A stretch of 46,757 bases of DNA, from the NCBI GenBank assembly GCA_013298775.1, contig JAAFIV010000036.1, positions 1 to 46,757 on the forward strand, read 5' to 3'. A program made the translations under genes and the position numbers. The notes under the pieces were generated by a model, which was given only the letters and a program-made list of their open reading frames with translations, did no database searches and was not told the DNA's origin. The first letter of the stretch is position 1. Every line of letters begins with the position of its first letter. This document shows, in pieces, positions 15,237 to 38,360 of the stretch. The stretch comes from Ignavibacteria bacterium (GTDB lineage: Bacteria > Bacteroidota > Ignavibacteria > Kapaibacteriales > UBA4661).

Positions 15237-15375
15237 AACTGGTCAGGTCTTCTCGTCGGGCGGCTGTTATCACAAGCACAGTAGCCGTCCGGCGGGTTAT
15301 CTCTCGCAGAGTACCCGCCAGACGGCAGCGTTTCTGAACTCCTCAGCCGCCCGACGAGGGAAGACCTGACCAGTT
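15237..15375. repeat. Nested palindromic element, copy A (CGTCGGGCGG family)
   Basis: The outer stem is two perfect 15-bp blocks: AACTGGTCAGGTCTT (15237-15251) with AAGACCTGACCAGTT (15361-15375), and CTCGTCGGGCGGCTG (15252-15266) with CAGCCGCCCGACGAG (15344-15358), with a 2-nt bulge. The inner hairpin is GCCGTC-C-GGCGGGT (15284-15297) with ACCCGCC-A-GACGGC (15313-15326). The second copy is at 36397-36542. Confidence 0.9.
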
Positions 15376-15405
15376 ACCAGATTTAGTTATTTTTGCTCTT
15401 TAGAT

Positions 15406-15495
15406 AGTGGCACAGACATTCTTGTCTGTGAGTGTTGGTGCGGGGTTTGGGCAACAAACACAGACAAGAAGTCTCAAGCCACTGAAGCCAGTATT
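15406..15495. repeat. Dispersed CACAGACA palindrome, copy 1
   Basis: The left arm GTGGCACAGACATTCTTG is intact; the right arm is eroded (CACAGACAAGAAGTC). It is followed by ACTGAAGCCAGTATT. Related to 38260-38337, 41296-41385 and 43913-43983. Confidence 0.8.
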
Positions 15496-15529
15496 TACGT
15501 CACTCCCAGCCCCTCAACGCTTAATTTGT

Positions 15530-15570
15530 ATATTCTCCAATAGATATTCTCCAATAGATATTCTCCAATA
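15530..15570. repeat. 14-bp tandem repeat x3 before the histidine kinase
   Basis: Three units of ATATTCTCCAATAG (15530, 15544, 15558; the last is cut by one base), ending 14 bp before the GTG start at 15585. They may alter spacing of the translation start region. Confidence 0.9.
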
Positions 15571-15584
15571 CAAGGACTGACGCG

Positions 15585-16679
15585 GTGTTACAACACGAAC
15601 AGCAATTTTTTCAGCGAATCCTTCTGCTCCTGTTTCTCGCAACGTTTTCGACGATTGTATGCGTGTTTACGGTCTTGCATTATGTTCATGCACCAATACT
15701 GCTCGCCTGTGCTATCGCCGCAATTATTGTAGGAATTGGATATTTCCTTGCATATTTGGCAGTACGAAAGGCGCGAGAGCGTCTTCAAGAAAACATCCGT
15801 GCTTCCGTTGATAAAATTGTCAATTTCACAGATGCCCTGAACGCAAGTAATGGTGCGCTTTCACCAAGTCTTGAGAGCGACAAGAACGATGTACCTTCTC
15901 TGCAACGCGCTCACGAAGCCGTACGAAAACTCGCCGCAAAACCGCATCAGGACTTGCAGGAGATGAAACGCTTGGAGCGAATGCGCTCCGAATTTTTGGG
16001 GAATGTGTCGCACGAACTTCGCACACCGATTTTTGCAATTCAAGGATTCTTGGAAACCCTGCTCGATGGCGCGTTGGAGGATGAATCCGTCCGTCGCAAC
16101 TTTGTGGAGCGTGCTTATTCCAACACCCTGCGCTTAAACGCTTTACTCACCGACCTCATCAACATATCCCGCATAGAATCAGGCGAGATGCGCCTTAGTT
16201 TCCGATACTTTCCGCTTCTGCCACTCGTAGAGGAAATCGTTGCGAATATGAGCGTAGCGCACGAACATTTGAATGTAACATTGCACATAGAATCAAGAAT
16301 TGATGCCGACTTGGAGGTATTTGGCGACCGCGACCGCTTGGCGCAAGTGCTGACAAATTTGCTTGACAATGGCATGAAATACAACGTTCAAAATGGCTCT
16401 GTTACGGTCATTATGGAAATTGTTCGTGATGGCAAGGGCGTGGAAGAAGTACGCGTGAGTGTGCGTGATACGGGGATTGGTATTCCGCAAGAGCATCACG
16501 GGCGGGTCTTTGAACGATTTTACCGTGTGGATAAAGCGCGTTCACGCTCGGTAGGCGGCACGGGGCTTGGCTTAGCGATAGTAAAGCATATTTTGGAAGC
16601 GCATAAATCCGCAATGTACATCGAAAGTAAGGGGGGAAGCGGCACAACGATGAGTTTTACGCTGAAGCGTGGGGAATAA
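15585..16679 (+). CDS. PhoR-like membrane sensor histidine kinase
   Basis: 364 aa from a GTG start; no good ATG lies nearby in frame. Two transmembrane helices span about 11-33 and 37-60 with almost no periplasmic loop, so a large external sensor is absent. A cytoplasmic linker (60-130) precedes HisKA with H143 (GNVSHELRTPIFAIQGF). The ATPase domain has NLLDNGMKYN (N box), DTGIGIPQEHHGRVFERFYRVD and GGTGLGLAIVKH. It probably phosphorylates the response regulator encoded upstream at 14396. No HAMP or PAS domain is obvious. Confidence 0.9.
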   Translation: MLQHEQQFFQRILLLLFLATFSTIVCVFTVLHYVHAPILLACAIAAIIVGIGYFLAYLAVRKARERLQENIRASVDKIVNFTDALNASNGALSPSLESDKNDVPSLQRAHEAVRKLAAKPHQDLQEMKRLERMRSEFLGNVSHELRTPIFAIQGFLETLLDGALEDESVRRNFVERAYSNTLRLNALLTDLINISRIESGEMRLSFRYFPLLPLVEEIVANMSVAHEHLNVTLHIESRIDADLEVFGDRDRLAQVLTNLLDNGMKYNVQNGSVTVIMEIVRDGKGVEEVRVSVRDTGIGIPQEHHGRVFERFYRVDKARSRSVGGTGLGLAIVKHILEAHKSAMYIESKGGSGTTMSFTLKRGE

Positions 16680-16941
16680 GAACACTTGGGTTCGAGACAA
16701 ATAAATAAAATGCCACGTGCCAGTGGCAAACCCGCATCTGCACTCGCTTTTCGAGATACAACTGCACCACGAAATACTTATTATGCCTTTTCTCATTACT
16801 ATTCCAACGGCAGGTTGTGAAATCATAATATATGCCGTAAAACGTAGATAATATGCGGTTCGTAGTTTTGTAGAGCTTGAAAATATATCTATCAAATCCC
16901 CTCGATAATTTTTCAAGCCTATCACCAAAATCTATATCCGT

Positions 16942-19365
16942 ATGTTATCACGAAAGAATTCCCCTCTTGCCTTTCAGACTGTACGGCATTTTTATGGCGC
17001 ACTCACCTTTACGCTACGACAAAAAATACTTGGACTGGCATTCCTGCTATTGTTCTTGAGTAGTGCGGTTATTATTTGTATGCGTCTTGAAGTTGTTGCC
17101 TACTCGGAGCGAGATTTCATGCGAAATATAAGCGTTGCGCTGCTCAATGCACATCGTTTTGAGCAAGACTTTCTGACAACCCGCAGTGCGAAAGAACAAG
17201 CGCAATTTCACGCCGCAATGCAGCGTATAGACTCGCTTCTTACAATGTCGAAGACTGGGCAAGTGCAGACCCTACACACAAGTATTGCTCAATACAAAGC
17301 AACATTCCATGAGCTTTCTCGGGTTGTTGAGCAGCGCGGAATTGATGAAAATTCAGGGGTGGAAGGGAGTTTTCGCAAAAGTGTTCATGCGATGGAGAAT
17401 CTTATTAATTCAAACAACGAATTGCATTTAATGAACCTTATGCTGCAAATACGTCGTTATGAAAAAGATTTTATCATGCGCCGCAAAAGTAAATACGTCG
17501 CGGAAGTCGAGCATAGCCTAGAGCTGCTTCGCACAGCAACGACGCGCACAGGTATTGCGCCGTCGCAGGCACAGCAAATTGTGGAATTGAGCAACGTGTA
17601 CCATCAAAACTTTCTCTCGCTTGTCACACTTTTTGTTCGCATTGATTCTCTGAATAATTGCCTCACGGCATCGTTTCTTGCGATGAATGCACAAGTGGAA
17701 TCGGTGGTTGTAGAGAAAGAGCGCATTGCGAGCGCGTATCGCAATGTTTCGTTGGGAGTAATTCTCCTTGCCCTGATGCTTGGGGTCAGGATTGCTCTGC
17801 GGATGTCGCAGAATATTTCCGCACCGATTGTGGTTTTGAGCGCGGCGGCAAAAAAGGTAGCAAAAGGAGATTTTTCCATCAAGGTAGAAACGCAAACCCG
17901 TGATGAAATCAGGCATCTAGCCAATGCGTTCAATCAAATGACCGACAGCATTCGGACTACAACTAGCGCATTGCACGAGGAAAAGCACAGCGTCGAACAA
18001 AAAGTTCGTGAAGCCACCGCAACGATTGAGCAAGAACGCAGCTCGCTGGCAGCAAATGTTGCGCACTTGGTGCAAGGAATTGAACATTTCGCACAGGGCG
18101 ATTTAACCACGCGCTTTGCAGCAAACGATGCGAGCGAAATTGCGCACGTTTATCGCAGTTTTAATCAAGCACTAACGAACATTCAAGAACTCTTGCTCAG
18201 TACAGATGAAGCTGTTGTAGAAGCTGCGCAAGCGGGGGTAATTATCGCAGAAAAATCCCAAACTTTTGCCGCAGGAGCGCACCAGCAAAGCCAGAGTGCG
18301 GCGGCGGCGGCGCGTTCGGTGGATGAAATGATGAATGGTATTGCCGCAACGCTTGATAACATCAATGCTGCAACGCTGTATTCCCAGCATGCCAGCCAGA
18401 ATGCACGGAAAGGCGTTGAAACGGTTGAGCATACCGCAAACGGCATCAATGCTATTGTTACAGCAACTCGCACGATGCAAGAGCAGATTGTACGCCTCAC
18501 CGAGCGTATTGATAAAATTGATGAAATCGCAGGTACCATTAAAGAAATTGCGGACCAAACGAATCTTCTCTCCTTAAATGCAAGCATTGAAGCGGCTCGC
18601 GCTGGAGAGCAGGGGCGCGGCTTCGCGGTCGTGGCGGATGAAGTAAAAAAGCTCGCCGACCGCACCTCAGCAGCAACAAAGGAAATTACACTCACGGTCA
18701 ATGGTATTCACCAAGAGACAAAAGATACCAATAAAGTGATGCAAGAGGCTCGTACCACGGTTGCCAAGGGAATTGAACTAACGCATTCGATTACCTATAT
18801 GTTTGAGGAAATTTTGAATGATGCCTTGCAGGTTTCGGGAGCAATGGCTGAAATTCAGGACAAAAGCCATGCACACCGCGCAATGAGTGAGCAAGTTAAT
18901 GCGGACGTTCAAAATATTGCGGCAGTAGTGGTGGATTCTGCAACCGACGTGCAACGATTAGCAGAAGTTGCGGAAGAACTTAAAAGCTCTATGTCCACCA
19001 TTTACGCGCTCTTGCAGAACTTTACGCTTTCTACCATGCAGCAAATTGATACCGAACTTCAATACACGAACAAAGAAGATTTTTCCGAGAAATCACAAAA
19101 GATGTTTTCCAAACATCATCGTGAGAATTATTTAGAATATGCTCCTGAAATGATAAAACAACACTCAAAAGTGCAAAGGAACGTTTTGCCGTCGCCGCAA
19201 CACGTTATGGGGCAAGGGCTTTCAAAGATGGCACATACAGCATCGGCAAAACTCCCACGTGCCACACTTGACCAATTTTCTATGAAAAATGCGTTCATTA
19301 CCAAGCAGCGCAGAAGTAGATATACAGTTATCTATGCCGAAGAGCATGATACTCTCTATGAATAA
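16942..19365 (+). CDS. Methyl-accepting chemotaxis protein
   Basis: 807 aa. First membrane helix at about 29-47, a helical sensor region of about 225 residues with several charged helices ([16 protein letters not shown]), a second membrane helix at about 270-287, then HAMP ([20 protein letters not shown]) and what looks like a second HAMP ([21 protein letters not shown]). The signalling hairpin tip is the classic [26 protein letters not shown] followed by [20 protein letters not shown]. About 110 extra residues follow the signalling domain. It should dock CheW/CheA, but no che or motility gene is in this window. The ligand is unknown. A terminator follows. Confidence 0.93.
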
Positions 19366-19413
19366 GGGTTTGAACAACACAAACTCCATGAAGAAGGGGA
19401 AACACACACAGAG

Positions 19414-19444
19414 CCTATTCGATAAGCGTCGAATAGGTTTTTTA
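19414..19444 (+). terminator. Terminator after the chemoreceptor gene
   Basis: A 9-bp stem (CCTATTCGA at 19414-19422 with TCGAATAGG at 19429-19437) is followed by TTTTTT. Confidence 0.85.
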
Positions 19445-19493
19445 TTGGAGGTATGTTTCGCACAGATGAATAAACGGATAAATCAGCCAACCT

Positions 19494-20327
19494 TTACGCG
19501 CCTTCCAGCCATGCCTTGCACTCTTTCACGCGTTCGCGGCTCACAATCACTTCGCCCGAAAAAGCTGGAAGCAGCTTCAATGCTAATCTTCCGTTGAAAT
19601 ACGGCTCCACGCTTGCGATGCTTTCTGCACGAAGCAAAAACTTCCGCGAAATACGGAAAAATTCCGATGGATTCAGCACCGACTCTATCTCTTCCAGCGC
19701 GTCCTCCGCAATGTATTTCCGCCCGTTTTCCAGCACGATGCTCACAATTTTCCCCTCTGCGTAAAAGTAGCGAATATCTTTCGTTGGAACAATCGTCATT
19801 GTTTCCCCAACGCTCAGAAGGAAGCGAGTTTTGAAGCGTTTTTGAGGCTGTTGTGTGGCAAAGTGTGCTTCTTGTAACGCCGCACGAAAGTCGTCCAATA
19901 CCGCATTATTCCTTGTGTTGTTATTTTCTTGAAAAAACTGCTTCTGCATGGCTAATTTCCTCAGTGCCGCCTGAATATCCGCATAACCAAAGGGTTTCAG
20001 CAAATACGCGATGCTGTGAACCTTGAAGGCGTGCAGCGCGTATTCGTTGTATGCCGTCGTAAAAATAACGGGAATATCTATCTGCACGTGGCGAAAAACC
20101 TCGAAACTTGAGCCATCAGCAAGGTGAATATCCACAAACAAAACATCGGGAATATCAGCATTTGTAACGTCTGTGGGCAGTTTTTGAAAGTAGGCAAGCG
20201 CATCCTGCACAGATTCAATCGTCCCCAGAAAGCGCATCGTTACTCCTTCCTCGCGACCATAGCGTTCGAGGAGTGTTGTGAGGCGGTGTGCGGCTTCTTG
20301 TTCGTCTTCGAGGATGAGGATATTCAT
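19494..20327 (-). CDS. LytTR-family response regulator
   Basis: 277 aa. Receiver domain at 1-125: acidic pair E7-D8, phospho-acceptor D66 (VLFVDIHLADGSSFEV), then FTTAYNEYALHAFKVHSIAYLLKPF with the conserved lysine. A linker of about 45 residues leads to a LytTR DNA-binding domain (about 165-275: YFYAEGKIVSIVLENGRKYI, FFRISRKFLL, VIVSRERVKECKAWL). This protein type binds direct repeats upstream of target genes. The gene starts 15 bp after the kinase gene ends, so the two form one operon with the kinase first. Confidence 0.93.
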   Translation of the reverse strand: MNILILEDEQEAAHRLTTLLERYGREEGVTMRFLGTIESVQDALAYFQKLPTDVTNADIPDVLFVDIHLADGSSFEVFRHVQIDIPVIFTTAYNEYALHAFKVHSIAYLLKPFGYADIQAALRKLAMQKQFFQENNNTRNNAVLDDFRAALQEAHFATQQPQKRFKTRFLLSVGETMTIVPTKDIRYFYAEGKIVSIVLENGRKYIAEDALEEIESVLNPSEFFRISRKFLLRAESIASVEPYFNGRLALKLLPAFSGEVIVSRERVKECKAWLEGA

Positions 20328-20342
20328 AAAGTTGTACTGAAA

Positions 20343-21413
20343 TTAACAATCCAGTAAAGGTACGCTAACGCAAAATTCCGTAATAGTTATCGAAACGCGA
20401 GGCTGTGAGCCGTCTCCACGTTTATTCAAAAATTCATACCGCGATTGCAAATTTGCCAAGCCCACCGACGACGACACATCTTTTTCCGAGCGTTCCTGAA
20501 GATTATTTTTCACAACCAAACACGCATCATCCATATCAGAAATTGAGCAATGAAGCGGTTTTTGGGTGGAAATGATATTATGTTTGACGGCGTTTTCAAC
20601 CAAAATTTGTAACGTCATCGGCGGCAAGCGCAAATCCAAGTATTCATCCCGAATTGTTACCGAAAGGTGGAGAGCAGATTTGAAGCGGGTTTTGAGCAAA
20701 TGTGCGTAGGATTCCAAAAATTCTAGTTCCATGCGAAGCGGCACAGTTTCTTGCTTTGCAGCATCCAGCACATAGCGATAGACCTTTGCCAGTTCCCGAA
20801 TAAATTCATCGGCTGCCTCCGCATCGCGATGAACGAGCGAGGACAAGGTGTTCAGGCTGTTGAACAAAAAATGCGGGTTGAGTTGGTGCTGAAGGGCTTG
20901 CATTCTGGCGGTAGCAGTTTCCTGTTTGTATCGTTCCAAATCCAACTCTGCTTGGTTGAAAAGCCTGATATAGTCTCGTCCACGAGTGCTTGCAAGGTAC
21001 ATTATTGTGAATCCAATAGCTGCCAAATTCTGCACATATGCGTCATTGAATGATAAACCGTCGTCGGTGAGCGCGGTATATGGTAGCCCTACGGCATTGG
21101 TGAGTGTAAGAAAAAATATTACTATCCACTTCGATTCTTCCAGCAAATACGCGCTTTGGAGCAGTGTCGCGGCATATTGTTCAAATATCCGACGACGAAC
21201 AATCATTGCGCCTTCAAAAAGCGCGTAGAACAGCAGAATTGTGGCAACAATGTCGCTAATGTAGTTATGAAGCGGTCTTTCGAGATTGATAAAGGTTTCA
21301 CTCCACGAGCCATCGGTCGTGAGGCGAACAAAGCCGTAGAACACCAGTGCTGATGCGGGTGGTAGCCATATTCTTTGCTGAAGAGCAGGAGGATGTGGGT
21401 AGAGGTTGTTCAT
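20343..21413 (-). CDS. LytS-type sensor histidine kinase (His_kinase family)
   Basis: 356 aa. About four membrane helices in the first 145 residues (for example 19-30, 54-72, 95-110, 130-141). The phosphotransfer motif LNPHFLFNSLNTL carries H181, as in the PF06580 family. The ATPase part has PPMTLQILVENAVKHNI (N box) and a glycine-containing VGLANLQSRYEFL; the G2 region is short, as usual for this family. It partners with the LytTR regulator immediately downstream. The signal is unknown. Confidence 0.9.
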   Translation of the reverse strand: MNNLYPHPPALQQRIWLPPASALVFYGFVRLTTDGSWSETFINLERPLHNYISDIVATILLFYALFEGAMIVRRRIFEQYAATLLQSAYLLEESKWIVIFFLTLTNAVGLPYTALTDDGLSFNDAYVQNLAAIGFTIMYLASTRGRDYIRLFNQAELDLERYKQETATARMQALQHQLNPHFLFNSLNTLSSLVHRDAEAADEFIRELAKVYRYVLDAAKQETVPLRMELEFLESYAHLLKTRFKSALHLSVTIRDEYLDLRLPPMTLQILVENAVKHNIISTQKPLHCSISDMDDACLVVKNNLQERSEKDVSSSVGLANLQSRYEFLNKRGDGSQPRVSITITEFCVSVPLLDC

Positions 21414-21545
21414 ACTTTGGTCGAGACGTTGTGCGGTTTCTCAAGGAAATACGCGGCATTCCGAAATTATAGTACAAAAAAATGGGTCATATTTTTTAAT
21501 TTAATTCTTTTTCGCACCGATTGTTGCACCATCATTGATAAAAAT

Positions 21546-22181
21546 ATGAAATCCTTTGAAATGTGGAACTACGAGGAAGTAGAAGATGCGTTCGGCATTT
21601 CCCCGCTCAGAACCAATCCTGCGTTTGAAGATTGGCTGAGAGCCGAAGGCTGCGAAGCCGATGAATCCGAGAAAAAGATGCTGGATTACTACCGCGATGT
21701 ATTGTTTGAAGAAGTCCACAACTGGAACGAAGACGAGCTAAAATTCTTTTTCATCGGACCCGTCTTAGGTTTGATTCATTTCAAAACAGCGAATTTCAAA
21801 CCCTACACACAACGCACACTCAGTATCACGCACGGCGAGATTTCTGCTTCCGGCAAGGTAGATTTTATGCTGGCAAAGGGGAAAGTTACGCCGAAAATTC
21901 CCTATTTCTGCCTGCACGAATACAACCAAGAAAATCGCCGCGAAAACGACCCATTGGGACAATTACTTATCGGTATGGTAGCAGCAAAAGCCAAAAACAA
22001 TGACGAATTGCCTATTTACGGCTGCTATGTGTCGGGGCGGAACTGGTTTTTTGTGTTGCTCGAAGGCGATAAATACTACGTGAGCAATGCTCATAATGCT
22101 TCCGACGATGATATTTACAAGATTTTCGCCATTATGAAAAAGTGCAAATTATTGGTGGATGTTCATGCTCGGAAAAAATAG
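21546..22181 (+). CDS. Hypothetical protein, possible PD-(D/E)XK-like fold
   Basis: 211 aa from the ATG at 21546; the open frame extends to 21375, but that upstream part overlaps the divergent kinase gene and looks non-coding. Not a family I can name. Visible pattern: helical N-terminus rich in acidic residues, then GKVDFMLA (D106) followed by a beta-strand-like PYFCLHEYNQE (E125), resembling the D...ExK layout of restriction-type nucleases but with no lysine in the expected place (E-Y-N-Q). Later segments YGCYVSGRNWFFVLLEGDKYYV are strand-rich. Bacteroidota genomes contain similar small proteins, but no role is established. It is convergent with the beta-lactamase-like gene. Confidence 0.6.
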   Translation: MKSFEMWNYEEVEDAFGISPLRTNPAFEDWLRAEGCEADESEKKMLDYYRDVLFEEVHNWNEDELKFFFIGPVLGLIHFKTANFKPYTQRTLSITHGEISASGKVDFMLAKGKVTPKIPYFCLHEYNQENRRENDPLGQLLIGMVAAKAKNNDELPIYGCYVSGRNWFFVLLEGDKYYVSNAHNASDDDIYKIFAIMKKCKLLVDVHARKK

Positions 22182-22214
22182 TTTGGGAGAGAACGTATCA
22201 CCTCGTCGCGCCTG

Positions 22215-23339
22215 TTACTGCGCGGCATTTAGGATTTTATCCACCCAACGCAGAGCCTCCGTATTCAAAAACTGAAAATCGTCTTGCGTATTGACTTCTG
22301 CTGTCATCACGATAACCATATTTTTCTTGGGTGCAACAAACACATATTGCCCGCCATGCCCGTCCATCGCCCAGAGCGAGCGCGATTTGTAGAGCCACCA
22401 ACAATAGCCAAATTGTGCGGAATAACCTGCAACATCACTTGTTTCTGTCGTCATTTCCTCAATCCACTGTTTGCTTACAAGCTGCTCACCGCGCCATTTT
22501 CCGCCGTTTAACACGAGTTGCCCGAATTTCGCAAGTTCGCGCGGTGTGCTGAGAATGCCGAAGCCGCCGAGTGTAACGCCGTCGCGGTATTCAGTCCAGT
22601 TCAGGCGTGAGATGGAAAGTTTAGAAAATAACACCTCCCTAGCCCAATCGCGTAAAGGCTTTCCAGTGGCGCGTTGCAGCATCGCAGAGACAAGATGCGG
22701 GCTGCCGTCGGTATAGCGAAACTTCTGTCCTGGCGCGGCTTCCAGAGGTCGGGCGAGAATAAATTCCACGCTATTGTCGGGGATTTGCCGCAATAATGCT
22801 TGTGTTTGCCCCGAAAGCCCGCCATTTTGAAAGTCAATACCAGAGCGCATCGTGAGTAAATGCCTTAGCGTGATTCCGCGTTTGTCCGCATGGTTGCTGG
22901 CTTCGGGCAAAAATTTGCTAATCGAATCTTGCAGTGTAATGAGCTTTTTGTCAATCGCAATACCTGTGAGTAAGCTCACCACTTGCTTCGTGCAACTCCA
23001 TACGGCGCGAGGCGTGGTCGCATCTGCGGGGTCTTTTGTGTAACTTTCCGCAACGAGATTACCATTACGAAAAACGAGCAAACTTCGCACTTGCCAAAGA
23101 GTTGCGTCGCTGTGAAATTGGCGGTAAATCTCGCTGAGAGTTGTGCTATCAATGGCTTCGGCACTTGGCGTTGAAATTGCCCAGCCATCATTCATTGCAG
23201 CAGGTCGGTAGCTTGCAAACGAGGTTTTAAGCGCATCTTCAGGTAAACATGATACAAGGAGGCTTGCCGATGCAATGAGAGCAACAATGAACTGAATGCA
23301 GTAAAAAGACCTCAAAGCCAGTATTCGTGAAGTGTTCAT
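22215..23339 (-). CDS. Beta-lactamase-family serine hydrolase lipoprotein
   Basis: 374 aa from the ATG at 23339, which begins a lipoprotein signal ending in ASLLVSC (C31 lipidated). The longer frame to 23429 overlaps the upstream gene and is less likely. The class C-type active site has SxxK as S115-C-T-K118 (AVWSCTKQ). A Y-containing motif RYTDGSPHLVSAML sits where YxN is expected but carries YTD. The third motif HGG is in DGHGGQYVFVAP. Such proteins include esterases and D,D-peptidases more often than true beta-lactamases. It is the last gene of a three-gene minus-strand cluster, 13 bp after the outer-membrane protein gene. Confidence 0.87.
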   Translation of the reverse strand: MNTSRILALRSFYCIQFIVALIASASLLVSCLPEDALKTSFASYRPAAMNDGWAISTPSAEAIDSTTLSEIYRQFHSDATLWQVRSLLVFRNGNLVAESYTKDPADATTPRAVWSCTKQVVSLLTGIAIDKKLITLQDSISKFLPEASNHADKRGITLRHLLTMRSGIDFQNGGLSGQTQALLRQIPDNSVEFILARPLEAAPGQKFRYTDGSPHLVSAMLQRATGKPLRDWAREVLFSKLSISRLNWTEYRDGVTLGGFGILSTPRELAKFGQLVLNGGKWRGEQLVSKQWIEEMTTETSDVAGYSAQFGYCWWLYKSRSLWAMDGHGGQYVFVAPKKNMVIVMTAEVNTQDDFQFLNTEALRWVDKILNAAQ

Positions 23340-23352
23340 GGTATTACTTATG

Positions 23353-24102: not shown

Positions 24103-24112
24103 AACCTTTTCT

Positions 24113-25360: not shown

Positions 25361-25526
25361 TCTCCAAAAAAATGAGCGTTCAAAACATGAGCGTTGTGAT
25401 GAATTATTGTTCGCTCAAAATTACGTGGACAAACGCATCGTTTTGGGAAAATGGGAATGAATTGTCGAAAATGGAGCGTGAATTGTACTGTTTCAATGCA
25501 AAGAGGAGAGTTTGTTTGTCATAATT

Positions 25527-25649
25527 AGGACTTTTGCAAAGGGCGCGTAACAAGAGTGTCCGCGCTACCATTAGAGATAGATTTCATGGGACTTCAGTAG
25601 GGCAAATACTCTTATCTGCCTTCATGAAATGAGCCGTTTGCGAAAGTCT
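25527..25649. mobile_element. MITE-like element with imperfect terminal inverted repeats
   Basis: The left end GGACTTTTGCAAAGGGC (25528-25544) is the near-complement of the right end GCCGTTTGCGAAAGTC (25633-25648). An inner pair ATTTCATG/CATGAAAT also exists. It is bounded by TTAG on the left and CTAA on the right, both YTAR-like as in IS5-type targets. There is no ORF inside its ~123 bp. It explains most of the 300-bp gap between the acyltransferase gene and mutL. Confidence 0.5.
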
Positions 25650-25660
25650 AAGCTGTTTTC

Positions 25661-28341: not shown

Positions 28342-28385
28342 AGCGATAAAGAAAAAGGGAAAATAAAACTACCACCAGCAAAATA

Positions 28386-28428
28386 CGAAAAAAGGCGCGA
28401 ACCAAAGATATTCTCTTGTGTTCGCGCC
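28386..28428 (-). terminator. Terminator of the HPP gene (minus strand)
   Basis: A 9-bp stem (GGCGCGAAC at 28394-28402 with GTTCGCGCC at 28420-28428). On the minus strand it is followed by TTTTTTCG; it lies 27 bp after the HPP stop. Confidence 0.8.
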
Positions 28429-28455
28429 TGTTGTTTTTGTTGAATCAATCAACCA

Positions 28456-28974
28456 TTACCAATACTTCGGATATTTCGTCTCGCGCACGAGATTGTTGTA
28501 CAGCAGTGCAATCGCAATCAGCACAACCGCGCCCGTGAGTGTTGGAAAAAGGAGAAACGTCCATGACGGCTGCGTAAGCGAGATAATAAGCGGGTTGGAG
28601 GCGGCAGGTGGATGGACAATCCGAGCCGACATCATCACCACAACCGTAGCCGAAAGCGCGAAGGCAAGCGACCACCAGTGATTGCCCCAGACCGCGACGC
28701 ACAACAATCCGATAAACGAACCCGTACAATGCCCAGCAATGACGTTACGCGGCTGCGCAAAGGGCGCGTCGGGGAAGCCAAAGACCAGCAAACATGAGGC
28801 TCCGAAGGATGCCAGAAAGCCAGTCAGTGCCAGTGTTTCGTGGAGAACATTGCTTATGAACACAATCGCTGAAATGGCGAGAAAGCTCCCCAGTCCAGCA
28901 ATTATCAGGCTTTTCAAGGGAGGCGACGGTGGAAGTTGTGCGCTGTCGCCTTTGAGTTTTGTGAAAAAATTCAT
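28456..28974 (-). CDS. HPP family integral membrane protein
   Basis: 172 aa from the ATG at 28974 (MNFFTKLKGD); the frame extends to 29049, overlapping the preceding gene, without recognisable sequence. Four hydrophobic helices and the family signature ARIVHPPAASNP near residue 120, plus FGASCLLVFGFPDAPFAQPRN. HPP proteins are four-helix membrane proteins, in part linked to nitrite or other small-anion transport; the substrate here is not deducible. It follows the thioesterase gene on the same strand by about 70 bp and has its own terminator. Confidence 0.85.
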   Translation of the reverse strand: MNFFTKLKGDSAQLPPSPPLKSLIIAGLGSFLAISAIVFISNVLHETLALTGFLASFGASCLLVFGFPDAPFAQPRNVIAGHCTGSFIGLLCVAVWGNHWWSLAFALSATVVVMMSARIVHPPAASNPLIISLTQPSWTFLLFPTLTGAVVLIAIALLYNNLVRETKYPKYW

Positions 28975-29045
28975 CTGAGGCAATGCTGGAAATGGATGGC
29001 AAAAAACGCTCTGGAATGCCCGTAAAAAGGAAGAAGAGGCAAATA

Positions 29046-29501
29046 TCAACCAGTATGCGCCCTGATAGGCTCAATGTTGGTACGAAGAAGATTTGATGTG
29101 CCACGAGCAATAATGTTACCATCCTCAAAGCGCAACACACACTCAACATTCTTCATTTGCTTTCCAGCACGAACGACTTTTGCTTCCGCGATAACGAGCG
29201 AACCAAGCGGTGCGGGTCGCAGAAAATCTATATGCAAATTGGTATTGACATGGAAATTATCAACGCCCAACAGCCCAACAGCTATGCCTAATGCCTCATC
29301 CATAATTGTACATTGCAGCCCCCCATGAAGCACCATTGCTGGGTTGCACATATCGGGACGTACACGAGCAGATAAGACAATATGCCCAACATTGGCTTCC
29401 AAAATTTGTAAATTTAACCAACGAGCAACAATAGGTACACGGTCATCGGTGGTCTCTCCTATACCAATATACGAGCGAAAGAGTTCTACGACTGGGTTCA
29501 T
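29046..29501 (-). CDS. PaaI-type hotdog thioesterase
   Basis: 151 aa, the usual length for a single hotdog domain. The motif NPAMVLHGGLQCTIMDEALG has the HGG turn and the acidic residue (D or E after IM) used for thioester hydrolysis. The following strands VNTNLHIDFLRPAPLGSLVIAEAKVVRAGKQM match the PaaI/YbgC-like fold. It probably hydrolyses acyl- or aryl-CoA thioesters in the cytoplasm; the acyl group is not known. It is followed closely by the HPP gene. Confidence 0.85.
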   Translation of the reverse strand: MNPVVELFRSYIGIGETTDDRVPIVARWLNLQILEANVGHIVLSARVRPDMCNPAMVLHGGLQCTIMDEALGIAVGLLGVDNFHVNTNLHIDFLRPAPLGSLVIAEAKVVRAGKQMKNVECVLRFEDGNIIARGTSNLLRTNIEPIRAHTG

Positions 29502-29551
29502 AGAGTTAGTAAATAATTGAGATTATGCAGAGTAGTCAAATACTGGGTTCT

Positions 29552-29653
29552 GGCTGAGGGACTCGCTTCTTCAGCGTCGCTCTCACTTCGCTCCCTCAGC
29601 CATTTCCGAAAATTTCCGAAAGTGAGACCCTCACGAGGAAGTGAGAGCCTCAC
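29552..29653. repeat. GTGAG-type palindromic repeat, copy 2
   Basis: A perfect 10-bp inverted repeat (GGCTGAGGGA at 29552-29561 with TCCCTCAGCC at 29592-29601) is followed by AAGTGAGACCCTCAC and GGAAGTGAGAGCCTCAC. Shares units with 7441-7535. It lies between the thioesterase gene and the end of the pyrophosphorylase fusion gene. Confidence 0.65.
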
Positions 29654-29662
29654 ACAAGGCTA

Positions 29663-32170
29663 TTACTCCGCGTCGCGCCACTCTTCGACGAGTTTGATGT
29701 GCTTCTCTGCGGCGGCTTGTGCTTTTGCTTTGTCGGCAGATTCAGCAGTAGCATGGAAAATTCCGCGCTCTTTATCGGGCAAAAACAGCACCGATACATC
29801 GCCGTCGATGATTTTTACGCCGTCAATCAGTTCGCGCTTCATTCCTTCGCTGTATTCCATTGCGCGGCGCATAATCAAGCCCTTTTTCTCCCACGGACAC
29901 GCCGTCTGATGGTTGAATTGGTAGCGCGTTGGAATTTCCTTATCAATTTCCACAATGCGTTTGCCTGTTGCGGCGAGCATATCCAAAATTTTACCGATAG
30001 CAAACATCGCATCGCTGGCAAAGAAGAATTCAGTGAAAATTAAGCGTCCACGTGTGTCGCCCAAAAACAGAATTTCTTTGTCGCGCGTGGCTTCCATCAT
30101 TGCTGAGTGCGAGTTTGGAATGCGTACCACTGTTACGTTGTTGTAGCCTTTGGCAATTTCCTCAATCTCGCTCGATGCCACAACCGACACCGCGAGTTTG
30201 TACGGAGCGCGGTCTTTGTGGGTTTCCATGAAGAGCTTCGACACAATCGAAAGCTGGCGCATCGGGTCGCACCATTTGCCTGTGCTGTCGGCAATCGAAA
30301 TTTTCTCTACGCCTGGGTCGAGAATAAAGCCGATTTCGTAATTGAGTGCGCTCATCACCTGCGACATCTGTAAGCGTGCGGCTTCCGACTCTTTTTCGCC
30401 ACGAATGGAGCGGCGCGTATCCACGTAGCCGTTCAAACCGACCACTTGGCATTGCAATTCGCCCAAAATGCGCGGAAAAACTGCGGAAGTCATACCGTGC
30501 GCGTAATCCACCACCACGCCGTATTGCCGCTCGGCAATCGCTTTCACGTTGATAGCGTTCACGTAGGCGGTGGTGTATGCCTCCATTGTGCGCTCGGGGA
30601 AAATTAAGCCGCCGATGTCTTCTGGCGCGACCCGCTTAATATCTTCGCCGAAGAAGAGGCGTTCAATTTTTTTGAGCGAGTTTGTTTGCATATCGCGCCC
30701 GTCGGCATTGAACAAAATCACATCAATTTGGCGCGGATAATATGGCGACTGACGCACGTGCAAGCCAGCAACCGCCTTGCCGTCGCGCATTGCTTGGCGC
30801 GTGAGCGGAAGCGGGCTTGTTTGCAAATCCACTACATCAATTCCCACCGACATCAACCCTGCCGCCATTGCACGCTTGACCATGCGCGAAACCTCGTTTG
30901 CGTCGCGGCTCGCAATCACGGTCTTTCCTGCGCCGAGCGAGTTGCCAAGCGCGGCACCGAATTTCGCGCCAAACTCAGGATTCATCTCAATATTCGACTG
31001 TCCCGTTACGCGAGCATCGGTGAAGAGGTCGCGCATCCATTTTTCTTCTTGAACAAGGCTGCGCGTAAGAATGGCGCGGGATTCAACCTCTTTCTGGGGC
31101 CAGAGTTTGATGTTCGAGGCAAGTTTTGCATACGCGCCAATGTGGCAACCATCAGAAATGAAGACGTTTTCAGCAATGCTGACGTGTTCTTCAATCACGA
31201 CATCGTTGGTGATAACGTCGTGTGTGAGCTGCGCAAAATCGCCAATCGTGGTGCGTTCCCAAATAACGGTGTTGTCAATTTTTGCACCAAAGCCAACTTT
31301 TGAGCCGTTCCCAAGCGATGAATCCTTGATTTCCGCATTCGGACCAATAACGACATTTTCACCCAAAACGACCGTTCCAATCAATTTCGCGGATTCATGC
31401 ACCTGCGCGGAGGCTGCAACGTAGGAAGTACCACGCTTCTCGCCCTTAATATCCACTTTTACTTTCCCCGCAATCGCGTCTGCCTGTGCTTGCTGGTATT
31501 GGTCGAGATTACCTACGTCTTGCCAGTAGCCTGTTGCGGTGTAACCGTAGAGCGGAAGCCCTTTCTGGAGCATGAGCGGGAATAAATCTTTGCTGAAATC
31601 GAAGTCTTTTTGGTAGGGAATCAAATCTAAAACTTCTGGCTCAAGGATGTAAATGCCAGTATTGATGGTATCGGAGAAGACTTCGCCCCAGGATGGTTTC
31701 TCCAAAAAGCGCGTAATTTTTCCTTCGCTATCGGTCATGACAATCCCAAACGCTAGTGGATTTGAGGCTTGCGTGAGGATAATCGTGGCTTTCGCTTTTT
31801 TCTCTTCGTGAAATTTCACTGCCGCCGAAAGGTCGAAATCGGTCAAAACATCGCCAGAAATAACGATGAATCGCTCCGAGAGATGCTCCTGCGCATAGCG
31901 TACCGCGCCAGCCGTGCCGTAGTCCGCCATTGCTTGCATATACTTCATCGTTACGCCAAAATCGGAGCCATTCCCGAAGTACGAGGTAATTTTTTCAGGT
32001 TGGAAAAACAGCAACGACACCATATCGGTAATGCCGCCGCGCTTCAAAAGGTTTACGATATGCTCTACCATTGGCGCGTTCAGCATCGGAGCCATTGGTT
32101 TGGGAAGATTCATTGTTATCGGGCGCAAGCGTGTGCCGAAGCCGCCTGCCATAATCACAGCTTTTTTCAT
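29663..32170 (-). CDS. Mannose-1-phosphate guanylyltransferase / phosphomannomutase-like fusion
   Basis: 835 aa from the ATG at 32170. Domain 1 (1-235) is a nucleotidyltransferase: VIMAGGFGTRLRP, LPKPMAPMLNAPM, ISGDVLTDFD, FLEKPSWGE, GYWQDVGN; it should make GDP-mannose (or another NDP-sugar). Domain 2 (about 250-375) is a left-handed beta-helix of hexapeptide repeats. Domain 3 (about 385-835) has the phosphohexomutase fold, but all four active loops depart from consensus: S475 loop HVRQSPYY instead of TASHNP; metal loop DPGVEK (618-623) instead of DGDGDR; sugar loop LGDTRGRL (703-710) instead of GEESGH; phosphate loop LPDKERG (797-803) instead of RPSGTEP. So the mutase half is probably inactive or reprogrammed. 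Similar fusions are known in cyanobacteria and other phyla. Confidence 0.88.
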   Translation of the reverse strand: MKKAVIMAGGFGTRLRPITMNLPKPMAPMLNAPMVEHIVNLLKRGGITDMVSLLFFQPEKITSYFGNGSDFGVTMKYMQAMADYGTAGAVRYAQEHLSERFIVISGDVLTDFDLSAAVKFHEEKKAKATIILTQASNPLAFGIVMTDSEGKITRFLEKPSWGEVFSDTINTGIYILEPEVLDLIPYQKDFDFSKDLFPLMLQKGLPLYGYTATGYWQDVGNLDQYQQAQADAIAGKVKVDIKGEKRGTSYVAASAQVHESAKLIGTVVLGENVVIGPNAEIKDSSLGNGSKVGFGAKIDNTVIWERTTIGDFAQLTHDVITNDVVIEEHVSIAENVFISDGCHIGAYAKLASNIKLWPQKEVESRAILTRSLVQEEKWMRDLFTDARVTGQSNIEMNPEFGAKFGAALGNSLGAGKTVIASRDANEVSRMVKRAMAAGLMSVGIDVVDLQTSPLPLTRQAMRDGKAVAGLHVRQSPYYPRQIDVILFNADGRDMQTNSLKKIERLFFGEDIKRVAPEDIGGLIFPERTMEAYTTAYVNAINVKAIAERQYGVVVDYAHGMTSAVFPRILGELQCQVVGLNGYVDTRRSIRGEKESEAARLQMSQVMSALNYEIGFILDPGVEKISIADSTGKWCDPMRQLSIVSKLFMETHKDRAPYKLAVSVVASSEIEEIAKGYNNVTVVRIPNSHSAMMEATRDKEILFLGDTRGRLIFTEFFFASDAMFAIGKILDMLAATGKRIVEIDKEIPTRYQFNHQTACPWEKKGLIMRRAMEYSEGMKRELIDGVKIIDGDVSVLFLPDKERGIFHATAESADKAKAQAAAEKHIKLVEEWRDAE

Positions 32171-32369
32171 AGAACACACAAAAAGATTAAAGTGAAAGAA
32201 GGTTAGTAGAAAATTTCAATGGAAGAAGATACGAAAAGGAATACACTAGGGGTCTATTTGATTACCCTGAACGACGCAGAAATACGTGGCTGCACGGTAT
32301 TTCGAGCGGACAAAACACAACAGCACACAAAATAAGAATTTTTTTGAATGCTCAAATATAAAATTCATA

Positions 32370-32880
32370 CAGGAGCGAATTTTTGTTGCTTGAGGAACGA
32401 GAATTCCCATTGTGCGGCTTTTTCTTGGGTTGTACCGAAACCGATTCCTTGATGTCAAAGCCTTGAAACCCCGTATCTTTGAGCAATCGTGTGGTCTCTG
32501 ACAGCGAGAGTTCCATCTCCTCGGCGAAGCGTTTATCGTGTGTTGTGCGCCTTCGACTGCGGGCTGAGAAAAAGAATCTCGCGCTCTGGAGATGCTAGAA
32601 TCAGATGCTTTTCGGTGTGGTGTTTTTTTACCCGAAGAATGCTTTGGTTGTGTCTGGGCATCCATGCTCTGCTGAATCGGACGTTCAGTGGCATCAAGAA
32701 GAATAGCGTGACAGTCCTTGAGACGTAGTTATAATTCTTCATTTGCGCATCATGTGTTTGGAGCTGGCTTGGGATTAGTTTGGTACAGGTGTTCCAGTTC
32801 CTAGCGTGGTAATTCGTTACGAATAGGAGTGTTTACTCGTGTGATATCAACAAGATACAGCTCTTTATTTTGATAAAATA
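32370..32880 (-). pseudogene. Decayed IS5-type (DDE_Tnp_4-like) transposase
   Basis: On the minus strand the pieces NELPR-stop-ELEHLYQTNPKP, then LDATERPIQQSMDAQ and QPKHSSGKK, KHHTEKHLILASPERE, HDKRFAEEMELSLSE and LLKDTGFQGFDI, VQPKKKP follow in the right order but in three frames and with an in-frame stop. This is the catalytic region of a transposase family whose intact members read like DATERPI...SGKKKRHT...HDK...GFQG...PKKKP. At least two frameshifts and loss of the C-terminal third mark it as dead. Terminal inverted repeats were not found. It occupies most of the 960-bp gap at 32180-33141; the rest (32881-33141) shows nothing else recognisable. Confidence 0.8.
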
Positions 32881-33141
32881 CACTTAATATAAACTAAATA
32901 TTGCAACGTACTTAAACTCTATTGTTATTGTCTGAAGAGTTCATAATATCTTGCGTTGAAGGTATTATCCCAAAAGTGTGTTCAAAAATGTAGCTGCGAA
33001 AAATAGGCAAAAATCAAATGCCGTGTTGCAACTTTTTCCTCTTCTCATGCGTACAGCATTGAACACGAGCCTCAAACACGAGCCTTCAACACTACGTTAG
33101 CAAATATTCCCACAACATTCTTACAACATTTATTCAATACC

Positions 33142-33837
33142 ATGAAAACCTTGATTCAATCTCGCTTGGAGCGTATTTCACGCTTACTTTTACCGATGCT
33201 TTTTTTCGGTGCGAGTGCGCTTCCCGCATTTGCTCAATTTTGGGGCGGAGGCACACGCGGCTCTGGTAAAATTTTATCCGATACCCGCACCGTTCCTGCT
33301 TTTACGAAAATTGTTGTTGCCGGAAGCGGCGATGTCATTTTCAAAAAAGGCGACAAACGCGAAGTTATTATTGAGGCGGATGATAATATTTGGGAAAGCG
33401 TTGAGACGAATGTAAACAACGAAGGCGAGCTTGTACTCGGCATGAAATCTGGCTCGTGGAATAATATGCACTTGAAGTTTATTATCACAAATCCTACGCT
33501 CGAAGGCGTACAGATTCGTGGGAGCGGCTCGGTAGAGGTAGAAAATAATTTTGAAGGACAAAAACTCCTCTCCAACATTAGCGGGAGCGGTTCTGTTCGG
33601 TACAAGGGCGGTAAGGTGCAGCAGCACGAAGTTTCCATCAATGGAAGTGGGAGTGTGCTTGCCGAAAAGCTGGACGCAAACGACGTAGAGGTAAGCATTT
33701 CAGGCTCTGGTAGTGCAAAAATTATGGCACAAAAAACCTTGAACGCACGTATTAGCGGTAGTGGGAGCGTTATGTATTCTGGTGCTGCCAACGTGAATAA
33801 ATCTATCTTTGGAAGCGGCAGTGTTGTCAAGCGTTGA
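33142..33837 (+). CDS. DUF2807 (head GIN domain) putative adhesin/autotransporter-like protein
   Basis: 231 aa. A signal peptide (LLLPMLFFGASALPAFAQ, cleavage about residue 31) is followed by a right-handed beta-solenoid-like domain: VPAFTKIVVAGSGDVIF, VEIxxDDNIWESVET and then repeated GSGSV units (IRGSGSVEV, NISGSGSVRY, INGSGSVLA, ISGSGSAKI, RISGSGSVMY, IFGSGSVVKR). DUF2807 proteins are common in Bacteroidota and predicted to be exported; function unproven. No T9SS tail is present. A terminator follows the stop. Confidence 0.9.
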   Translation: MKTLIQSRLERISRLLLPMLFFGASALPAFAQFWGGGTRGSGKILSDTRTVPAFTKIVVAGSGDVIFKKGDKREVIIEADDNIWESVETNVNNEGELVLGMKSGSWNNMHLKFIITNPTLEGVQIRGSGSVEVENNFEGQKLLSNISGSGSVRYKGGKVQQHEVSINGSGSVLAEKLDANDVEVSISGSGSAKIMAQKTLNARISGSGSVMYSGAANVNKSIFGSGSVVKR

Positions 33838-33859
33838 GAATTTTTATTGCGAAATGTCT

Positions 33860-33902
33860 ATCCGATAGTATGCGTTTACAGCCGACTATCGGATTTTTTT
33901 TG
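33860..33902 (+). terminator. Terminator after the DUF2807 gene
   Basis: A perfect 10-bp stem (ATCCGATAGT at 33860-33869 with ACTATCGGAT at 33885-33894) is followed by TTTTTTTG. Confidence 0.9.
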
Positions 33903-33980
33903 TGTATTCTTAGGCAAATTCATAGGCAATGATACCAGATTTTACCTTGCAGGACGGTGTTTTTTTTGCCATTTTACGAG

Positions 33981-36305
33981 ATGAGAATAACTCTGTGTTT
34001 TTTTGCCGACGCTGAATTACAAATGGTGATGCACATGCTTTCTTTTCTTTCGTGGTACCTCCACATGCCGCTTGCAGTATGGCGTTGCTGCCTTCGTGTC
34101 CCTTTATTGAACGGTATTTCTTCTTTTCTTTCTGCATGTTTACTTTCTTTCTTTGTTGGATACTGCTACGCTCAAGCCCAGACTTCATCAGCATTGCAGG
34201 ATGTTTTCCCACCTCTGCACCTTCAGCAAATACAACAACAGCAAAATATCACCCAAAACTCCTCTGTTGGTATTTCCTTAGGCAAACAATGTTTTGTATT
34301 CATAGATTCCTCCAAAACCTTGACCATTACTGATGTTTGTCGTCCTACCACGCTTAGTCGTTTTCGCCCTTCTGCTCAAGAAATTCCAAATTTTGGTTTT
34401 GCAAAACCCACATACTGGTTTGCATTTTCGCTTCGCAAGAGCGCGTCAATACTGAATGATTGGGTGTTGGAAATTGCCTATCCGCCGCTTGATTCTATCG
34501 AAATTTTTGAATTTACTTCTCAAAGTCCAGAAGCCGCATCACAACAAGGCTCGCGGCTTATTCGTCGCGCTCTTTTGGGGGACATGCTGCCTTACGCGCA
34601 TCGCTTCATGGATACGCGTACCTACGCCATTCCACTTGATTTGCGCGACACATTGCCGCATACGTTTTTTGTCCGTGTGAATACGCAAAGCTCCGTGCAA
34701 GTGCCGTTGTATCTGCATCATCACACGGGATTTAGCGAGCAGCTTTCGCGCTCGGAGCTTGCCTACGGAATCTTTTTTGGCGTTATGGCTGCGCTTATTT
34801 GCTACAATGTATTTTTATTTGTGAGTTTGCGCTCGCGGTATTACGTGTATTATATCGTGTATTTGCTGGGTGCGAGCTTGTATATTGCGGTGGTGAATGG
34901 CTTTGCCGCGCAATATCTTTGGGGGAATTTCCCTTGGTGGGCAAATTACATGAATAGTGCCGCGATTGGCGTGATGATATCTGGCGTTTCGGTCTTTGCA
35001 CGCGAATTCTTGCAAGTACGGCGATACGCACCCGTTATGGCGAAAGCCCTGATAATTTCTATGTTGGCAGGTGTTTTTGTTATTCTGAGCGGCTTTATTT
35101 TGCCCTACCGCGTGTGTGTGCAGATGAGTGTGGTGGTGAATATCCTCACGATTATTCTTCTTGTTGTGAGCGGTGCAATCGTCTGGGCGCGAGGAAATAC
35201 CAGCGTCCGCTTCTTCTTTTTGGCAGCAGCACTTTTCCTGACGGGAAATATCTTATTTGTGATGAAAACTGTCGGCATACTGCCCACAAACCCAATAACG
35301 ACGCACATTGCAGAGCTTGGCGTGATGACCGAAGGACTTCTCTTTGCCTTCGCACTCGCCGACCGCTACCGTTTAATGCGGGTTCAGAGGGAAGAGGCGC
35401 AGCAGGAAGCCTTGCGTATTGAACATGCGGCAAAGGTACAGCTTGAGGGAAAAGTCCGCGAGCGCACGGCGGAACTTGAGGCGATGAACGACGAAATGCA
35501 GCGTCAGATGGTGATTTTGAACGAACAAGCAATTGAAATTGAAATGACGAATGTCGCATTGCAGGAGAAGAATTTGCTGCTGGAGAATCTCAATCACGAA
35601 AAAAATGAGTTCATGGGAATTGCGGTGCATGACTTGAAAAATCCACTTCAAACTATCATCATGAATACATCCATGATGCGCCGCTACCGCGATAAAATGG
35701 ACAATGAGCAGCGTGATTACCTCTTCGAGCGCATCGAAGAAACGACGCGCCGTATGCACAATATCATCACCAATTTGCTTGATGCAAATGCGATTGAAAT
35801 GGGAAAAGTAGAGTTTTCACAAGAAAAGTTTCCAATATATGAGGAAATACGCGCTTTGGTAGATGATTACATTGAGAAAGCATCGGCAAAGCGCATCACT
35901 ATGAGCTTCGAGCCAGAAAACAAGGAAATATGCGTCTTTGCGGATAAGCATCGCACAATGGAAGTCATTGAAAATTTACTTTCCAATGCGGTAAAATTTT
36001 CACCCAAAGATAAGCGCATTGTCATTCGCATAGCTCCGCACTCAAGCAATGACAAGCCTTCTGGGCAAATGGTACGTATAGAAGTACAAGACGAAGGACC
36101 TGGTTTATCGGCAGAAGATAAAGCAAAACTCTTTGGCAAATTCGCTCGCCTCTCCGCACAACCAACAGGCGGCGAACACTCGACGGGACTTGGACTTTCA
36201 ATCGTCAAACGCTTTGTCGAGGCAATGAATGGCGAGATTTGGTGCGAATCCGAAGAAGGAAAAGGAGCAACGTTTGTGCTGCTGCTGCCAATGGATCGTA
36301 CTTGA
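33981..36305 (+). CDS. 7TMR-DISM sensor histidine kinase
   Basis: 774 aa from the ATG at 33981; a GTG at 33957 and ATGs at 34023-34035 are alternatives, all before the signal sequence SFLSACLLSFFVGYCYAQA. The periplasmic part (about 65-265) fits a 7TMR-DISMED2 sensor domain (KPTYWFAFSLRKS, WVLEIAYPPLDSIEIF, HTFFVRVNTQSSVQVPLYL). Seven membrane helices follow (about 270-460, starting YGIFFGVMAALICYNVFLF). A coiled-coil linker leads to HisKA (GIAVHDLKNPLQTI) and the ATPase domain (NLLSNAVKFSP, DEGPGLS, STGLGLSIVKRF). The ligand is probably a carbohydrate or other small molecule, from family knowledge only. No response regulator is adjacent. Confidence 0.93.
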   Translation: MRITLCFFADAELQMVMHMLSFLSWYLHMPLAVWRCCLRVPLLNGISSFLSACLLSFFVGYCYAQAQTSSALQDVFPPLHLQQIQQQQNITQNSSVGISLGKQCFVFIDSSKTLTITDVCRPTTLSRFRPSAQEIPNFGFAKPTYWFAFSLRKSASILNDWVLEIAYPPLDSIEIFEFTSQSPEAASQQGSRLIRRALLGDMLPYAHRFMDTRTYAIPLDLRDTLPHTFFVRVNTQSSVQVPLYLHHHTGFSEQLSRSELAYGIFFGVMAALICYNVFLFVSLRSRYYVYYIVYLLGASLYIAVVNGFAAQYLWGNFPWWANYMNSAAIGVMISGVSVFAREFLQVRRYAPVMAKALIISMLAGVFVILSGFILPYRVCVQMSVVVNILTIILLVVSGAIVWARGNTSVRFFFLAAALFLTGNILFVMKTVGILPTNPITTHIAELGVMTEGLLFAFALADRYRLMRVQREEAQQEALRIEHAAKVQLEGKVRERTAELEAMNDEMQRQMVILNEQAIEIEMTNVALQEKNLLLENLNHEKNEFMGIAVHDLKNPLQTIIMNTSMMRRYRDKMDNEQRDYLFERIEETTRRMHNIITNLLDANAIEMGKVEFSQEKFPIYEEIRALVDDYIEKASAKRITMSFEPENKEICVFADKHRTMEVIENLLSNAVKFSPKDKRIVIRIAPHSSNDKPSGQMVRIEVQDEGPGLSAEDKAKLFGKFARLSAQPTGGEHSTGLGLSIVKRFVEAMNGEIWCESEEGKGATFVLLLPMDRT

Positions 36306-36313
36306 CTCGCCAT

Positions 36314-36374
36314 ACATACACTACCCTCACACTGCTCGCGCAGCGTAGGGGCGAGCAATGTGAGGGTATGTGTA
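36314..36374. repeat. Palindromic element between convergent genes
   Basis: Imperfect inverted repeat: ACATACA, ACCCTCACA and GCTCGC on the left match GCGAGC, TGTGAGGGT and TGTGT on the right. It sits just after the 7TMR kinase stop at 36305 and could end transcription structurally, but it lacks a T-run. Confidence 0.7.
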
Positions 36375-36396
36375 CGAAGCGCAATGGCTTACAAAA

Positions 36397-36542
36397 GTAA
36401 CTCGTCAGGTGTATCCCCGTCGGGCAGCTGAAGAATACGTAAACGCTGCCTTACGGCGGGTGCGTCGCTTGTACACCACTCGCCGTAAGGCTACTGCACT
36501 TGTGATAACAGCCGCCCGACGAGATAGTACCGGACCAGTTAC
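36397..36542. repeat. Nested palindromic element, copy B (CGTCGGGCGG family)
   Basis: In reverse orientation it aligns along its whole length with copy A (15237-15375). The inner stem is a perfect 11-bp pair GCCTTACGGCG (36448-36458) with CGCCGTAAGGC (36481-36491), different in sequence from copy A's inner stem but equally paired. Outer arms are GTAACT...CCGTCGGGCAGCTG and CAGCCGCCCGACG...AGTTAC. It abuts the hslU stop codon at 36543. Confidence 0.9.
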
Positions 36543-38337: not shown

Positions 38338-38360
38338 AAATATTTCTGAAGTTCATTCAT

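Follow-up and report, generated by a model that had tools for sequence, protein, structure and literature searches.

We analysed a stretch of 46,757 nucleotides (hereafter the window) from the genome of an Ignavibacteria bacterium (GenBank assembly GCA_013298775.1, contig JAAFIV010000036.1). The window is one of the 95 contigs of a 5.19-Mb draft and contains two copies of a nested palindrome, called here copy A and copy B, which had been proposed in a preliminary description made from the letters alone. Both were confirmed, with their inner stems and outer arms read directly from the sequence. Copy A occupies positions 15235-15377 on the + strand, two bases more on each side than first noted. 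Its terminal inverted repeats lie at 15235-15247 (GCAACTGGTCAGG, + strand) and 15365-15377 (GTAACTGGTCAGG on the - strand), and its inner hairpin (15284-15326, + strand) pairs GCCGTC (15284-15289) with GACGGC (15321-15326). Upstream of it is a response regulator gene (14396-15109, +, matching Response_reg and Trans_reg_C) and downstream a histidine kinase gene (15585-16679, +, matching HisKA and HATPase_c), the phoB/phoR-like pair that had been described as split by the palindrome. Copy B occupies 36397-36542 on the - strand, with exact ends. Its inner hairpin (36448-36491, - strand) reads GCCTTA (36448-36453) and TAAGGC (36486-36491) on the + strand, so that both sides of the stem have changed together relative to copy A, as reported. 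The outer arms are common to both copies, with one mismatch in copy B (CAGCTGCCCG). The neighbouring AAA+ ATPase gene (36543-37976, - strand) matches AAA_2 above the Pfam cut-off; we keep for it the label hslU from the preliminary description, Pfam itself giving AAA_2. Its stop codon (36543-36545) comes directly after the end of copy B at 36542.

A model search of the whole window returned nothing at E≤1 apart from these two copies, and an Rfam scan of the window at gathering scores gave no match at the palindromes, reporting only a thiamine pyrophosphate (TPP) riboswitch and tRNA. We consider it very probable that the palindromes are copies of a miniature inverted-repeat transposable element (MITE) of about 145 bp driven by IS66, and that the correlated change of the inner stem is a subfamily block that has spread, not the product of selection on folding.

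A repeat family with 8-bp target duplications

The copy counts that follow are lower bounds throughout, the candidates having been scored in part. A BLAST search of the own genome with copy A gave at least 94 rows at E≤10 (best 40 of 242 candidates). The best non-self E value was 2.4e-55, a match far beyond chance; the element being palindromic, many of the rows come from a single place matched in both orientations. With a sequence model made from 22 copies, the same genome yielded at least 150 rows (best 150 of 1,530 candidates). Once the flanks had been fetched, at least 112 instances could be distinguished, of which four are fragments shorter than 90 nt; the presence of further copies, a point on which the preliminary description had staked its proposal beforehand, is thereby established. 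Both terminal repeats (GTAACTGGTCAGG, at most four mismatches) are found in 69 of the 112 instances. The other 43 are without one or both, which in eight cases is explained by an interrupting element (an IS110-like element in six and another MITE in two). The 69 full copies measure 129-167 bp, and 59 of them fall within 142-148 bp. Analyses of partial copies used 31 of the 43, leaving out the interrupted instances and the four short fragments.

The element begins with GTAACTGGTCAGG and ends with CCTGACCAGTTAC. The flanking 8-mers are perfect repeats of each other in 36 of the 69 full copies and match at seven or more of the eight bases in 49. When the left flank of one copy is compared with the right flank of another, these frequencies are 0.04% and 0.64%, respectively. 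Among the lengths from 2 to 13 bp, none but 8 bp gives a signal of this size (e.g., 2/69 perfect repeats at 7 bp and 0/69 at 9 bp). The perfect duplications are 76% A+T, against 58% in the flanks 20-60 nt away. Copy B is flanked on both sides by TTACAAAA (36389-36396 and 36543-36550, neither assigned a strand). The TTA of the right-hand repeat is the hslU stop codon as seen on the + strand, and the palindrome ends exactly at this codon, as had been described, because the codon lies within the target duplication. The 3' end of hslU in a congener (genome G005) has TTACAAAA once, without the element; the DNA beyond it on the other side differs. The flanks of copy A agree at 0 of 8 bases, and this copy may be a recombinant or may have lost its target duplication.

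Nine sites could be compared between the own genome and G005 (L091, L030, L106, L123, L065, L092, L109, L120, and L121). At L091, the congener's site is cleanly empty and holds the 8-bp target once. Five further sites are without the element there and have borders that are not clean: L065, L092, L109, L120, and L121, the last with another repeat nearby. The core was matched in 6 of the 149 genomes searched, the own genome included, all of them from one genus (best five candidates per genome at most). Within the same limit, the five other genomes mostly match only part of the core, and G005 holds single half-hairpins, with only two places spanning most of the core, one of them weak (best 150 of 1,074 candidates). 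In a scan of the named genome collection, which may not have covered the records of the own genome, a 20-base core pattern was matched exactly in a single stretch, from the metagenome-assembled genome Candidatus Kapaibacterium sp. PH2015_12D_48_15.

The element is thus a MITE, with terminal inverted repeats, a duplication of constant length (8 bp), many short gene-less copies, and empty sites in a congener. This agrees with the mobile element that the preliminary description had offered as one reading, which is borne out by the copy number, the terminal repeats, the target duplications, and the one clean empty site. As a non-autonomous element of about 145 bp with GTAACTGGTCAGG inverted repeats, it enters A/T-rich sites, duplicates 8 bp, and has spread to about a hundred or more places in this Kapaibacterium genome. 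It is similar to QMITE2 of Coxiella in size, direct repeats, inverted repeats, A/T-rich sites, and stable fold. For QMITE2, a review (PMC10969869) gives direct repeats of 7-9 bp, terminal inverted repeats of 23-29 bp, and a core of 113-145 bp. The MITE of the window differs in its G+C-rich nested palindromic core and its apparently IS66-like parent, and the term IS66 is absent from the main text of that review. Literature searches on IS66 with MITEs, and on Kapabacteria with insertion sequences, MITEs, or transposable elements, gave no paper on this element, as judged by titles and the beginnings of abstracts, with subscription papers mostly outside reach. We regard it as a new MITE with IS66-type ends within the known class of non-autonomous elements.

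IS66-type ends and the probable mover

The most likely mover of the MITE is an IS66-type transposase, as the comparison of sequence ends suggests. The IS66 transposase domain PF03050 was found in 15 of 149 relatives, two of which are congeners (G001 and G007). The tnpC remnant of G001 (PF03050, 5.6e-11) ends in GTAACTAGTCAGGTCATCC, with the stop codon of the frame inside the repeat, and this end and the start of one MITE copy (L003) match without a difference over 19 nt. Searching with the DNA of the G001 remnant matched five of seven congeners; in G009, which belongs to the same family, it reached nothing but stretches of about 30 bases at a distance from the end (best three per genome at most). 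The same end stands on the G001-like remnants of G004 (two places, 0 mismatches) and G005 (one mismatch); it is degenerate in the G007 remnant and off the contig in G002. The remnants of G001, G004, and G005 display one end each, and those of G004 and G005 are recognised by DNA similarity to that of G001.

A GTAA start is known for IS66 ends. In ISDge4 of Deinococcus geothermalis (IS66 family, ISBst12 group), the ends read GTAAC on one side and GTGAC on the other (PMC12898284). Its end GTAACTGCTCAGCA and its 8-bp repeat resemble those of the MITE, which shares the GTAACTGCTCAG.. ends and the 8-bp target duplication; the element of the window is about 145 bp long and without a gene. Repeats of 8 bp are also given for ISPpa5a and ISPpa7 (PMC3281130). 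The MITE would then be moved in trans by a transposase of the IS66 family with ISBst12-like ends, of which congeners retain remnants bearing this terminal repeat. The nested palindrome itself consists of two hairpin modules placed head to head between IS66-type ends.

Several results weigh against this attribution. No IS66 transposase (PF03050, E≤0.001) turned up in the own genome, and the G001 remnant has no DNA match there (best 3 of 80 candidates). The remnants of G004 and G005 were not reached by the PF03050 search, and the genus yielded no intact IS66 element with its two ends. The missing gene is weak evidence either way, because a draft assembly, here of 95 contigs, can collapse multi-copy insertion sequences. 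MITEs can outlive their parent element, so that the lack of the parent transposase in the own genome does not exclude derivation from IS66. The same lack is what would favour a mover from some other transposase family with 8-bp duplications. We find such a mover very unlikely: in congeners, the repeat of the MITE stands at the end of IS66 remnants and directly adjoins the end of the gene, and a published IS66-family end is near identical.

Even less probable, in our judgement, is a repetitive extragenic palindromic (REP) or paired REP (REPIN) family moved by a REP-associated tyrosine transposase (RAYT) of the Y1 type. The head-to-head hairpins, the copies without terminal repeats, and the single half-hairpins of the congener are what such a family could produce, and a check for a REP-type transposase did find two Y1_Tnp genes in the own genome (L201 and L202, on contigs C1 and C8, one with an in-frame stop). 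These genes lie amid palindromes of a different family (GTGAGRSYCTCAC type), not beside the nested palindrome with its CGTCGGGCGG hairpins, and we rejected RAYT as the mover for this reason. The full copies also have 8-bp target duplications and terminal repeats, for which REPINs are not known. The likeness to REP, REPIN, and bacterial interspersed mosaic elements lies in the many head-to-head hairpins and in the use of the palindrome by an IS110 element as a constant insertion point, a role also described for REPs (PMC1525189); the IS66-type ends, the 8-bp duplications, and the Y1 genes that do not adjoin the palindrome set the MITE apart. Palindromes similar to the GTGAGRSYCTCAC type also occur in the window, near 7443-7476 and 29620-29653.

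Correlated changes in the inner stem

The joint change of the two sides of the inner stem had been read as the mark of selection on RNA or cruciform structure. The wider set of copies speaks otherwise. Tallied over all 69 full copies, the inner block reads GTC/GAC 44 times, GTC/TAA 9 times, TTA/TAA 8 times (including copy B), and TTA/GAC 3 times; the rarer forms GTC/GAT (2), ATC/GAC (2), and CTA/TAA (1) make up five in all. Of the 20 copies with TTA/TAA, GTC/TAA, or TTA/GAC, 12 carry the changed block on one side and 8 on both. The two arms are associated (Fisher p 0.0006 for the four main block classes), an association that could come from common descent alone. Mutations private to single copies were counted, with the differences per stem pair, in 56 of the 69 full copies (13 with more than six gaps were left out), using the stem pairs from the fold of the consensus. 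None of the 65 private stem mutations yields a Watson-Crick pair, 13 give G-U, and 52 break the pair; none has a private change in its partner. Further copies with uncompensated arm changes, which the preliminary description had named as evidence against its reading, therefore exist. Comparison within 11 nearest-neighbour pairs of copies showed one-sided differences at 77 stem pairs, of which 22 are standard pairs in both copies, and two-sided differences at 6, of which 2 are. In a larger set of 100 cores, compensation is seen for 0 of 36 private stem mutations, and the private rates of paired columns are not lower than those of unpaired columns (0.0041 vs 0.0030, 0.0053 vs 0.0035, and 0.0038 vs 0.0034 in three classes).

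We weighed the possibility that the palindrome is kept by selection as RNA or cruciform, e.g., as a bidirectional terminator, with compensatory changes in its arms. Several points speak for it, of which the private rates and the formal count given below also weigh against our own reading. The predicted folds are very stable (-93.5 kcal/mol for a 150-base stretch with copy A and -79.9 kcal/mol for a 160-base stretch with copy B), and 29 of 33 copies with long flanks lie between open reading frames (ORFs) by a crude ORF rule. In the 56 copies, the private rates of the outer (0.0072) and inner stem (0.0097) are slightly below that of the loop (0.0114), with 0.0079 in the spacers and the highest value, 0.0141, in the terminal repeats. 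The cores stay near the consensus where terminal repeats are lost: in a comparison covering 102 rows, their identity to it is 0.887 in the 15 rows with a mean repeat identity below 0.65 and 0.874 in the 55 rows at 0.85 or above. A formal covariation count, made with 51 of the 56 copies (five left out) and the fold of copy L031, gave two-sided changes in 49 cells against 27.2 after shuffling (a value this high in none of 500 shuffles) and no more than 34 after sliding, with 85.4% paired against 84.0%; the shuffle control leaves shared ancestry in place. Of these 49 cells, the TTA/TAA block accounts for 17, in its two pairs, which are unpaired in 13 and 10 of the 51 copies, respectively, and a single junction pair for another 12. 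The covariation is hence real as a statistic, and most of it comes from a few shared blocks. Between the orthologous copies L030 and L203, one outer arm shows a multi-base block of difference and the other a single changed base, which adds to the one-sided blocks and to the paired columns that evolve no more slowly than the unpaired ones. Already disfavoured by the uncompensated private changes, selection on folding is not supported, and we hold it to be very improbable. RNAalifold gave no sensible consensus on all 69 copies, we think owing to mixed subfamilies.

Under our reading of the palindromes as copies of an IS66-type MITE, the correlated inner-stem change is a subfamily block present on one arm, on the other, or on both. 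Its spread would be due to descent, together with copying from arm to arm or from copy to copy, rather than to base-by-base compensation under selection for folding. The family illustrates how correlated stem changes in a palindrome with many copies can resemble RNA covariation and yet behave as shared blocks. When repeats are tested for covariation, private, per-copy mutations should be examined too. If copying between arms or copies does keep the symmetry, it is a route to false covariation signals.

Proposed exchange of interiors and associated elements

A further difficulty for our reading comes from the 31 partial copies: in 19 of them neither terminal repeat can be recognised, and in 12 only one can. 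Simple decay does not explain them, because their cores stay well kept. That they are simply old was rejected as the whole story: the median terminal branch of the core is 0.098 in these copies and 0.057 in those with target duplications, while one or both of their repeats have changed beyond recognition. That they all have another fixed end was rejected as well, as only three ends among the 31 match such an end exactly. Each half of the core is itself a hairpin, as seen in the sequence, and three of the sites shared with G005 bear on the history of the interior. At L106, the same insertion is found in G005 with the same worn right end and a different interior. At L123, G005 has a hairpin of another type, which is suggestive of exchange, and at L030 the core is present in both genomes and differs by a block in one outer arm.

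A second end, ACGCTCTTCCCGTC, has 15 exact occurrences and is found at 95 places with up to two mismatches (55 for the reversed control); several of these ends lead into related hairpins. Tentatively, and with less than even confidence, we propose that the interior is a hairpin module open to exchange. Related hairpins would then be carried by MITEs with IS66 ends and by elements with different ends (ACGCTCTTCCCGTC; TATACTCAACAAGGGTA), and would also stand by themselves. Under this proposal, interiors are replaced where an insertion already exists, such that old, worn-ended insertions carry fresh cores, and that the symmetry of the palindrome is kept by copying between arms or copies and not by selection. 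From the one clear case and the supporting patterns, exchange in place would most likely proceed by recombination or conversion between copies. If interiors are exchanged in place, MITE ages estimated from cores would be wrong.

Other elements share parts of this organisation. One with ends like TATACTCAACAAGGGTA carries a related hairpin module (L309, L311, L316, L318, L320, and L323). Two loci have the same terminal repeats and other interiors: 352 bp with a nested hairpin repeat at L066 and 113 bp with a RAYT-type palindrome inside at L067. A second MITE-like element (ends CAGGGCTGTTAAGTTC) is nested within copies of the first at L012 and L117.

An IS110-like element has both its ends at one fixed point of the palindrome's outer arm (CCCG-TC-GGGCGG), observed at 14 contig ends and corresponding to at least 10 insertions. 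One end is seen at L061, L062, L064, L104, L131, L132, L258, L262, L264, and L265, and the other at L063, L065, L080, and L136; the two end types probably belong to a single element. The MITE accounts for the repeat at which the draft assembly breaks at these 14 contig ends. No IS110 gene was found in the own genome at E≤0.001, and a 26-residue peptide from the IS110 end has no match in plasmids. A congener copy that shares one end (L261:1531-2802, - strand) encodes PF01548 and PF02371, the IS110 family. The other end holds TTCCCGTC, identical to the left half of the target, which is a possible target guide of a bridge RNA, to judge from this match.

Elsewhere in the window, the TPP riboswitch scores 72.2 bits (43601-43710), and another family of hairpin repeats (GTGGCACAGACATTCTTGTCTGTG) lies at 15405-15470, 38251-38338, 41287-41372, and 43915-43979, with similar stretches recurring in G005.

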